Positions 24,254-27,342 of a stretch of 64,000 nucleotides of DNA are shown piece after piece (positions within the stretch are counted from its first letter, which is position 1; every line of letters begins with the position of its first letter). Below the pieces are notes generated by a model. The model did no database searches and was not told the DNA's origin. It worked only from the letters and a program-made list of their open reading frames with translations. Source of the DNA: Ideonella sp. (lineage in GTDB: Bacteria; Pseudomonadota; Gammaproteobacteria; Burkholderiales; Burkholderiaceae_C); NCBI GenBank assembly GCA_015075165.1, contig JABTUY010000004.1, positions 124,001 to 188,000 of the forward strand, given 5' to 3'. A program made the position numbers and the translations under genes.

Positions 24254-25243
24254 ATGCTGCGATGGGCCTTGTCGGCGATCGCGCTCGCGCTGGCGGCGGG
24301 CGGCGTGTCGATCACCATCGCCTACTCGCGCGCGATGGACCGCGCCTACCAGCGCATCGGCGGCGGCAGCGAGGTGATCGGCTCGCCGCTGGGTGACATC
24401 GAGTACGCCGATCGCGGGGTTGGGCCCGCGGTGCTCGTCGTGCACGGCAGCGGCGGCGGCTTCGACCAGGGCCTGTTGCTGGCGCAGGCCGCTTTGGGTG
24501 ACGGCTTGCGCCGGATCGTGCCGTCGCGCTTCGGCTACCTGCGCTCCACCGTTCACGCCGGTGCCACCTTCGACGACCAGGCGCAGGCCTATGCCCATCT
24601 GCTCGACCGGCTGGGCCTGCAGCGGGTCGCGGTGGTGGCGTTCTCGCACGGCGGGCCGTCGGCGGCGCTGTTCGCGGCGCTGTACCCGCAGCGGGTGTCG
24701 TCGCTGACGCTGCTGTCGGCGGGCGTCGCGTCGTCCGACTCGCCGGGGCAGCTCGAAGCCAACCGGCGCGGCGACGCGCTGGCGCGGATCTTCCAGCACG
24801 ACCTCGGGTACTGGGCGGTCGCCACCGCGCTGCGCGGCCGCCTGCTCAGCCTGATGGGCGCCGACGCGCAGGTGATCGCGCAGCTCACGCTGCCGCAGCG
24901 GCAACTGATCGACGAGCTGATCGAGGTGATGCATCCGGTGGCGCCGCGCGCCGCCGGCGTGCGCTTCGACAACCGGGCACCGTTGCCGAACGAGCGCATC
25001 GCCGCCATCCGGGCGCCGACGCTGATCGTGCACGCGCGCGACGACTCGCTGCAGCGCTTTCACCATGCCGAGTTTGCCGCGCGCACGATCCCCGGTGCGC
25101 GCCTGCACGCGTTCGAGCACGGCGGCCATCTGCTGGTGGCGGTGCAGCAAGATGCCGTGCAGCGGCTGGTGCGGCAGCATGTGCTGACGCAGGTCGATCC
25201 GGCGTTGCCGCTGGCGCCGCAAGATCATCTGCCGCGCCGATGA
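24254..25243 (+). CDS. Alpha/beta hydrolase with an N-terminal membrane anchor
   Basis: 329 residues. One hydrophobic N-terminal segment (LRWALSAIALALAAGGVSIT) could anchor it or act as an uncleaved signal. The hydrolase domain follows, with oxyanion loop VVHGSGGGFDQGLLL, nucleophile elbow VVAFSHGGPSAAL (Ser in FSHGG), an acid in TLIVHARDDSLQ, and a final histidine in FEHGGHLLVA. The fold is canonical and the catalytic triad complete. It is translationally coupled to the next gene (ATGA). The substrate is unknown; esterase or thioesterase activity is plausible next to an acyl-CoA dehydrogenase. Confidence 0.85.
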   Translation: MLRWALSAIALALAAGGVSITIAYSRAMDRAYQRIGGGSEVIGSPLGDIEYADRGVGPAVLVVHGSGGGFDQGLLLAQAALGDGLRRIVPSRFGYLRSTVHAGATFDDQAQAYAHLLDRLGLQRVAVVAFSHGGPSAALFAALYPQRVSSLTLLSAGVASSDSPGQLEANRRGDALARIFQHDLGYWAVATALRGRLLSLMGADAQVIAQLTLPQRQLIDELIEVMHPVAPRAAGVRFDNRAPLPNERIAAIRAPTLIVHARDDSLQRFHHAEFAARTIPGARLHAFEHGGHLLVAVQQDAVQRLVRQHVLTQVDPALPLAPQDHLPRR

Positions 25244-26136
25244 ATCATGCTCGCAACCGCCGCATGCCGATGCGAACCGTCCTGATCGTGATCGGGCTCG
25301 TTGCCGCGGCCGCGGTGGTCGCGACGGGCATCGGCCGCTGGCGTCACGCGGCGGCGCTGGCACGCCTGCAGCAGCGGGTGCTGCAGGCGCCGGCCGGCGC
25401 GCGCCTTGCGGCCGCGCCCGAATGGGCGGCGTTGCCGCCGCCGGTGGCACGCTATCTGCAATGGGCGCTGGGGTCGCGGCCGGATGCGCCCGCCGGCATC
25501 GAGATCGAGCAGGCCGGTGAGCTGCGCACCGACGAGAACGTCGGGCGCTGGCTGCGCTTTCACGCCCTGCAGGTGGTGTCGCCGGCCGGCTGCGGCTTCG
25601 TCTGGAACGCCAAGGTCGTGCTGGCGCCGCTGCTGCACGTGCGCGTGGTCGATTCGCTGGTGGGCGGGCGCGCGGCGGGCCGCGTGCTGCTGCAGTCGGC
25701 GCTGGCCGTCGCCGATGCCGGCGACGAGCCCGAGCTGAACGCCGGTGCGCTGCACCGCCTGCTGGCCGAAGCGGTGTGGTTCCCGTGGCTGCTGCTGCCG
25801 GGCGAGCATCTGCAATGGCAGGCCATCGACGCGCAGCGCGCCCGCGCCACGCTGACTTGCGGCGGGCTCAGCGTCGCACTCGAGTTCCGCTTCGGTGCCG
25901 ACGGCGAGGTGGTGGCGATCCACACCCCGGCACGCTGGGGCCGCTTCGGCGGCCGCTACGAGCAGGTGCCGTGGCAGGGTCACTTCGCACGCTACGAAGA
26001 GCGCGCTGGCGTGCGCGTGCCGCTCGAGGGCGAGGTGGGCTGGTGGCGCGCCGGGCAGTTGCAACTGGTGTGGCGCGGTCAGGTGCTCGGCTATCGGCTG
26101 ATCGAGCTGCAGCGTGCGCAGCCGCCATCGGGTTAG
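25240..26136 (+). CDS. DUF6544/DUF6920-like protein with one membrane segment
   Basis: 298 residues. A hydrophobic helix near residues 10-30 (RTVLIVIGLVAAAAVVATGI) precedes a soluble domain with LPPPVARYLQWALG, RFHALQVVSPAGCGFVWNAK, LLAEAVWFPWLLLPGEHLQW, and a C-terminal GEVGWWRAGQLQLVWRGQ. This resembles a domain of unknown function found widely in bacteria (I recall DUF6544). The start overlaps the upstream hydrolase stop. The stop codon TAG lies at the first bases of the 272 bp inverted-repeat element, so the insertion may have supplied the gene's end. Function unknown. Confidence 0.72.
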   Translation: MNHARNRRMPMRTVLIVIGLVAAAAVVATGIGRWRHAAALARLQQRVLQAPAGARLAAAPEWAALPPPVARYLQWALGSRPDAPAGIEIEQAGELRTDENVGRWLRFHALQVVSPAGCGFVWNAKVVLAPLLHVRVVDSLVGGRAAGRVLLQSALAVADAGDEPELNAGALHRLLAEAVWFPWLLLPGEHLQWQAIDAQRARATLTCGGLSVALEFRFGADGEVVAIHTPARWGRFGGRYEQVPWQGHFARYEERAGVRVPLEGEVGWWRAGQLQLVWRGQVLGYRLIELQRAQPPSG

Positions 26137-26404
26137 GGCCTGTTCACACTACGGATGCCAGTGCGAGCGGGCCTGGCAAGCCGCAGGGCTAGGCGGACGA
26201 CGCCGCTCGGGTTGGGCGCCCGAGCAAGGAGTTCAACGACGCCATGCGGCTTGCCAGGCCCGCTCCCGAACGGGTTGCCACCAGAATGCCCGCGCGCGTC
26301 GTTGCAAATCCTCGCCGGGTGTCCAACCCGGCTGCGGTTTGCGCCTATCTCGCGGGCATTCTGGTGGCAACGCATCTGGCATCCGTAGTGTGAACAGGCC
26401 CTAA
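26133..26404. mobile_element. 272 bp MITE-like element with nested perfect inverted repeats
   Basis: Terminal inverted repeats are 29 bp and perfect: 26133-26161 begins TTAGGGCCTGTTCACACTAC and its complement ends at 26404. Inside are two further perfect 21 bp inverted-repeat pairs: arm 1 is 26165-26185 with 26245-26265, and arm 2 is 26274-26294 with 26351-26371. Each arm's loop contains another hairpin (GCTCGGG/CCCGAGC; GCCGGGT/ACCCGGC). It encodes no transposase. Short reading frames through it are repeats of the inverted sequences. A TA or similar short target duplication is possible at the ends, as in IS5-type or Tc1-like elements, but the family is not certain. The rest of 26405-26616 is promoter DNA. 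Confidence 0.85.
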
Positions 26405-26616: not shown

Positions 26617-27342
26617 GTGGGCGATCGCGATCGCAGTTTCGCGCCGGTGGAGCGGCCGGTGGCGCTGGCCGAGCAGGTCTATCACGCGCTGCGTGAGCGC
26701 CTGCGCAACGGCGCGATCATGCCCGGCCAGCCGCTGCAGGAGGTGCAGCTGGCCGCGGCGCTCGGCGTGTCGCGCACGCCGGTGCGCGAGGCGCTGGCGC
26801 GGCTGGCCAGCGAAGGGCTGCTGTGCGGCAGCCGCCGCAGCTTCATGGTGCCGGCCCTCACCCGGCAGGACGTGGAAGACATCTACGAGGTGCGCTACCT
26901 CGTCGAGCCGGCCGCGCTGCGGCGCGTGGCGCCGCTGACGGTGCAGCCGCGCGTGCGCGCGCCGATCGATGCCGCGTTCGCAGCGGCCCTGGCCGCGCAC
27001 CGTGCCGACGATGCCGATGCATTCCGCCAGGCGCACATCGACTACCGCAACGCCTGGCTCGCGCTGGTGCCCAACGCGCGGCTGGTGCGGCTGATCGAGC
27101 AGTACGCCGATCACCTGCAGCACATCCGCACGTTGACGCTCGGCGACGCGGCGGTGCGCACGATCGTGCTGCGCGGCCTGAAGCGCGTGGCCGCCGCGCT
27201 GGCCGCCGGCGATGGCGATGCCGCCGCCGCCGCGATGCTCGAGCACCTGCGCCAGGCGCATCGCGTGTTCGTCGAGGTCACCGGCCTCGACGCCGAGCCG
27301 CAGCAAGGCGAGCGCATCGCCGCAGGGGGTGCCACGACATGA
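26617..27342 (+). CDS. GntR/FadR-type regulator heading the indoleacetate-like operon
   Basis: 241 residues from a GTG start with GGAGG 7 bases upstream. The winged helix (about 15-80) has LQEVQLAAALGVSRTPVREA and LARLASEGLLCGSRRSFMVP. The FCD ligand domain (about 90-225) has VEDIYEVRYLVEPAALRRVA and the histidine-containing stretch AHIDYRNAWLALVPNARLV. Its last bases overlap the thiolase start (ATGA), so it is the first cistron of an approximately 25 kb operon and probably its local repressor. The effector is presumably the pathway substrate or a CoA intermediate (inference). Confidence 0.88.
   Translation: MGDRDRSFAPVERPVALAEQVYHALRERLRNGAIMPGQPLQEVQLAAALGVSRTPVREALARLASEGLLCGSRRSFMVPALTRQDVEDIYEVRYLVEPAALRRVAPLTVQPRVRAPIDAAFAAALAAHRADDADAFRQAHIDYRNAWLALVPNARLVRLIEQYADHLQHIRTLTLGDAAVRTIVLRGLKRVAAALAAGDGDAAAAAMLEHLRQAHRVFVEVTGLDAEPQQGERIAAGGATT

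Follow-up and report, generated by a model that had tools for sequence, protein, structure and literature searches.

A 266-bp three-armed non-autonomous element with IS5-type ends in Ideonella sp. and the probable concerted evolution of its arms at the DNA level

The locus and the fold of the element

The window, that is, the whole 64,000-nucleotide stretch of Ideonella sp. DNA analysed here, carries at the 3' end of one of its genes a short palindromic element, the features of which are collected in Table 1. As the original prediction had stated, the element adjoins the stop codon of this upstream gene, to the point of supplying its last base, and no transposase gene is encoded within it. Further along lies a 241-aa reading frame (window 26617-27342) with the look of a GntR-type regulator, starting 216 bp past the element. 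In layout, the outer stem encloses two arms, which in turn flank a CCC-GGG mini-hairpin. All three inverted-repeat pairs had been described as perfect, and the repeat search bears this out for the outer pair (29/29 matched, 26133-26161 with 26376-26404), for the second arm (21/21) and for the outer 21 bp of the first arm, which over its whole stem is matched at 24 of 25 positions. The predicted three-armed fold is upheld, with a folding energy of -212 kcal/mol against -121 +/- 5.5 in shuffled sequences (z = -16.5), and is thus not a product of chance. Its extent, originally given as 26133-26404, has to be corrected to 26136-26401, since the outer TA on each side belongs to the target duplication and the T/A match at the very ends of the 29-bp pair is a coincidence lying beyond the element proper. 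Both arms do end in hairpin tips, though these are imperfect and bear a conserved asymmetric motif, and a fourth short hairpin sits at the junction.

Table 1. Coordinates of the element and its surroundings in the window
Feature	Position	Strand	Basis
Whole element, 266 bp, GGGCCTGTTCACAC...GTGTGAACAGGCCC	26136..26401	.	copies with differing flanks and empty sites of a relative
Left TA of target duplication; TAG stop of upstream gene = TA + G26136	26134..26135	.	
Right TA of target duplication	26402..26403	.	
Left terminal inverted repeat = outer stem, 26 bp	26136..26161	+	
Right terminal inverted repeat = outer stem	26376..26401	-	
First arm, stem 26165-26189 with 26241-26265	26165..26265	+	repeat search, folding
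Arm-tip core, conserved, first arm	26185..26246	+	covariance model R1, 64.4 bits
Junction mini-hairpin CCCGAACGGG, family consensus CCCTTCGGG	26265..26274	.	helix 5, 100% paired
Second arm, stem 26274-26294 with 26351-26371	26274..26371	+	repeat search, folding
Arm-tip core, conserved, second arm, inverted orientation	26292..26352	-	covariance model R1, 74 bits
Upstream gene, 298 aa; TAG stop 26134-26136 takes in the element's first base	25240..26136	+	

Copies, hosts and target sites

The element is multi-copy, its own genome holding three full copies at different sites (C23:150133, C23:262710 at 100% and C12:91270 at 94%), two of which align at 100% identity, and one genome of the same genus holding a 95% identical copy. 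In the copy at C12:91270 (L003 1501-1774), the junction segment is swapped for about 30 unrelated bases, GATGACCGACCAGCGCGCAGCGCGCAGG, and both arms are broken; a template-switch patch is a possible origin of this replacement. Within the host family, 54 of 301 genomes, representing 40 of 141 genera, carry the terminal sequence with at most one mismatch, and very often two ends face each other at a distance of about 270 bp. One genus (g16) has up to about 15 matches per genome. Scanned with a pattern, the GTDB-genome collection yielded at least 119 DNA stretches with the element, in beta-, gamma- and zetaproteobacteria as well as a few alphaproteobacterial and Acidobacteria MAGs, placements that may include contamination. 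Plasmids and phages are not the main carriers, since plasmid collections gave one partial match, viral contigs three and phage collections none.

Among the 133 distinct copies collected, mean pairwise identity is 54%, length falls between 263 and 268 bp in 125, TA stands on both flanks in 105, and the outer 16 bp of the terminal inverted repeat are almost invariant across the family. Shortened copies (stem-only forms of 45-51 bp and others of 83, 158 and 168 bp), each with a different interior, look from their sequences like hairpin deletions. One genome (G071, L176-L182) contains many stem-only remnants of 47-51 bp and one 83-bp perfect hairpin, the interiors of which differ, suggesting that arms were repeatedly deleted in place.

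The three bases outside the element ends are CTA in 149 and TTA in 77 of 266 cases. A genus of 26 genomes has many copies, at differing sites, and two relatives have an orthologous site that is empty, the filled site reading CTCAC-[TA-element-TA]-ACGCGACAG and the empty ones CTAAC-TA-ACGCGACAG and CTGAC-TA-AGGCGACAG (L235, L236). With a single TA in each empty site, the target duplication is a 2-bp TA, and the possibility raised against the original prediction, that of a single-copy sequence without empty sites, falls away. In empty and filled sites alike, the adjacent gene on the reverse strand has its TAG stop at this TA, so the insertion appears to have restored the stop. Across the 96 copies with usable flanks, 92 gene 3' ends face an element, and 30 of these take their stop codon from the element end, a count perhaps somewhat inflated by ORF-calling. 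The rebuilding of a stop codon on insertion would explain why the elements are tolerated. At six loci (L012, L028, L029, L032, L041, L044), a lone element end still supplies the TAG stop of the preceding gene, although nothing else of the element is left. A homologue of the window's upstream gene is present in another genome (G001), without synteny.

Partner insertion sequences and class membership

A transposon sharing the terminal sequence, which the original prediction had proposed to look for, exists in other genomes: one of them contains two IS, of 804 and 799 bp, with exactly the element's ends and TA flanks. The two ORFs of the 804-bp IS match DUF4096 / DDE_Tnp_1 and the NCBIfam IS5 transposase model NF033580, on which the ORFs of the partner IS score 112.9 and 93.0 bits. 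Six further genomes have IS with the ends TAGGGC[C/G]TGTTAACAC, which brings the total to seven within the host family, none of them the element's own; the latter contains no IS with these ends and nothing closely related to the partner transposase, its one weaker IS5-family match being a gene of a different subgroup. The window copy is therefore probably immobile at present. Partner IS and element are, besides, seldom found together in one genome, and both this and the missing partner count against the mechanism put forward below.

An IS5-type DDE transposase beside these ends, the mark of the IS5 family, is found in the partner IS and not in the element, which instead combines the attributes of a MITE: it is short (under 600 bp), lacks a transposase gene, has perfect 26-bp terminal inverted repeats, lies in multiple copies at different sites with a target duplication shown by an empty site, and has its ends in common with an autonomous transposon, the IS5-family IS of other genomes. 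On these sequence grounds, its assignment as a non-autonomous IS5-type element is well supported in every respect save mobility. The claim that it exceeds a simple MITE in complexity also holds. In the mechanism proposed, an IS5-family DDE transposase (DUF4096 + DDE_Tnp_1, NF033580 type) would recognise the GGGCCTGTTNACAC ends and move the element in trans, with insertion at YTAR, duplication of TA and, often, a position inside a TAG/TAA stop that would be rebuilt as TAG; ends, target and duplication are observed here, and from them we infer the transposition.

Evolution of the arms

Pairing was scored on a common structure of outer stem, arm, mini-hairpin and arm. Over 40 oriented and diverse copies, pairing holds in 92.6% of cells, compared with 65.8% in shuffled and 35-41% in slid alignments, and covariation amounts to 0.667 against 0.169 in shuffles, a level reached by 0 of 500; double changes affect 72 of 89 pairs (973 cells). 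The long stems contain few wobbles (1763 Watson-Crick, 69 G.T and 55 A.C pairs). Isolated mismatches comprise 87 G.T and 73 A.C, and neither the orientation of the element (G.T 38, A.C 46) nor the transcribed strand (54 and 50) introduces a bias. In the tip helices, G.T exceeds A.C both with the plus-strand consensus (74 and 8) and with the minus-strand consensus (59 and 26), so the excess is largely a matter of the choice of pairs. Among 59 non-overlapping pairs of closely related copies, base pairs had changed on both sides in 227 cases (111 transitions, 116 transversions; unpaired sites 319:220) and on one side alone in 263. Adjacent double changes number 42, compared with 16.2 +/- 5.5 expected and a maximum of 31 in 200 permutations, and at 75-85% identity base pairs change in total about as much as single unpaired sites do. 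Judged by these sequence comparisons, changes seem to arrive as coupled, at times multi-base steps, which is what arm homogenisation of inverted repeats by template switching yields (PMC8604942).

The original prediction had offered very recent insertion or selection on structure as the cause of the perfect arms. A young, simple insertion, with arms perfect from recency alone, would account for the near identity of two own-genome copies (L001, L002), but the paired-arm architecture is retained in copies averaging 54% identity and across proteobacterial classes, which refutes this reading and makes it the least credible of the explanations considered. Scarcely more credible is a nest of two or more unrelated insertions: the one-armed (158 and 168 bp) and stem-only (45-51 bp) forms do exist, yet the two-armed form is dominant and conserved in length, the stem-only forms differ inside, as if each had arisen by its own deletion from a full copy, and both arm tips are one motif, inverted, contrary to what was to be expected of unrelated internal arms. 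Selection at the RNA level, in which transcripts reading through past the stop would fold, for instance to stabilise or process the mRNA, and compensatory selection would keep the pairing, draws on the very stable predicted fold and on the stop codons formed by element ends. As the main force it is nonetheless rejected, and as an explanation it is improbable, since G.T equals A.C approximately in either orientation and on the transcribed strand, double changes are not rich in transitions and the folding energy is the same on either strand; no Rfam family matches either. Equal G.T and A.C, the missing transition bias and the clustering of adjacent doubles point instead to concerted evolution at the DNA level.

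The main rival within that level is selection on a DNA cruciform or single-stranded hairpin, serving transposition or the binding of a host protein, rather than mutational correction. The constancy of length, the conservation of tip motif and junction hairpin next to variable stems, and strand-symmetric mismatches, which suit a two-strand cruciform, all agree with it; the clustering of adjacent double changes beyond chance does not, and the similar rates of change of pairs and unpaired sites fit templated correction better than slow two-step selection. Cruciform selection as the sole cause is accordingly a minority view, though a serious one, and it can contribute beside templated correction, so that the two may act together. 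Clustered double changes could also stem from recombination of diverged copies or from uneven constraint. The best explanation of the pairing remains arm correction: the three-way-junction body would be an inherited family trait in which stem sequences drift freely while both strands of a stem change together, most likely, to go by the substitution patterns, through extruded or single-stranded hairpins being copied or repaired against themselves (template-switch or quasipalindrome correction). We put the probability of the combined reading, an IS5-mobilised MITE with an inherited three-way junction, arms corrected at the DNA level and a tip that is a candidate binding site, at roughly 0.75.

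The arm-tip motif and its other carriers

While the stems are near random, CNAGGCGC...GCAACGNCG is kept at the arm tips, twice per element and in inverted orientation. A covariance model of the tip matches ten places in the own genome, of which six belong to the three full elements, three to a second family with the ends GAAGCTGTGAAYGAA and one to a decayed third type. At a strict threshold, the tip core appears in 3 of 114 genomes of a class survey, the own genome included, a patchy distribution. The second family is one-armed and carries the same core (L006, L007, L008, L014, L016, L020, L021, L026; own-genome members L006 at C26:156998, L007 at C1:917411 and L008 at C27:95235); several copies have an apparent 3-bp TGA/TCA duplication, often at TGA stops, and the flanks of the family are compatible with a 3-bp TNA duplication. 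Another genome (G391, L304 1346-1611) holds a 265-bp two-armed element of like layout with entirely different ends, GTACTCCGTCCAGGCATTATTGGC, and a further one (G394, L305-L317) has a dozen one-armed elements, nearly identical to one another, that carry this core and have ends including CCCGGCAAGGGTTTACATTAT, a recent amplification of another type.

The motif is hypothesised to be a structure-dependent protein-binding site that aids spread or tolerance. Going further, and with distinctly less than even confidence, one may picture the arm with its CNAGGCGC...GCAACGNCG tip as an autonomous module recognised by a host factor and captured by several MITE families that differ in their ends and in their IS5-type or other transposases, two inverted copies giving the length-fixed three-way junction. 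If so, such non-autonomous elements would form a class of their own, 'structure-guided' and with DNA arms evolving in concert.

Novelty and comparison with known systems

A MITE is usually regarded as what is left of a decayed IS, its interior being dispensable. In the present family it is the interior that is most constrained, its length, junction and tip motif being fixed over several proteobacterial classes while the stems vary yet stay complementary. The family is widespread and apparently undescribed. Rfam gave nothing at gathering score and only chance-level matches at permissive thresholds, a search of the text of published papers for the end sequence nothing relevant, and a literature search for MITEs of three-armed, cloverleaf or IS5 type no counterpart, although further papers or ISfinder entries could hold one. 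Its more than 100 natural copies amount to a natural experiment in bacterial palindrome homogenisation, and they make testable what the tip motif binds and why differently ended MITEs keep it.

With IS5-family IS (NF033580, two ORFs) and their MITEs the element has in common the terminal inverted repeats TAGGGC[C/G]TGTTAACAC, the TA flanks and insertion without coding capacity; the likeness to the IS is confined to the ends, as the 234-bp interior is a conserved three-way junction not derived from the IS. Correia/NEMIS, RUP, ERIC, Bcr1 and QMITE elements are likewise short, non-coding, multi-copy, strongly folding and gene-adjacent (review PMC10969869), but the present family is far wider in hosts and fixed at 266 bp, and has two pseudo-symmetric arms and a tip motif common to differently ended elements. 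REP, REPIN and CGTC repeats are also palindromic, intergenic and often in inverted pairs, but REPs measure 20-40 bp, bear a GTAG or CGTC tag, lack terminal inverted repeats and, for CGTC, have a stem of 8-9 bp (PMC3733652), whereas the element has terminal inverted repeats, a TA duplication and 266 bp, and lies outside the REP definition. Identity with CGTC-REPs came into question because the arm tip, on its reverse strand, reads CGTCGTTGC; it was rejected against that definition on the same three features. Quasipalindrome correction and arm homogenisation (PMC8604942, PMC7202029) produce coupled two-arm changes and multinucleotide tracts like those seen here, and the difference from the published cases is that such correction is proposed here as a lasting feature of a mobile-element family.
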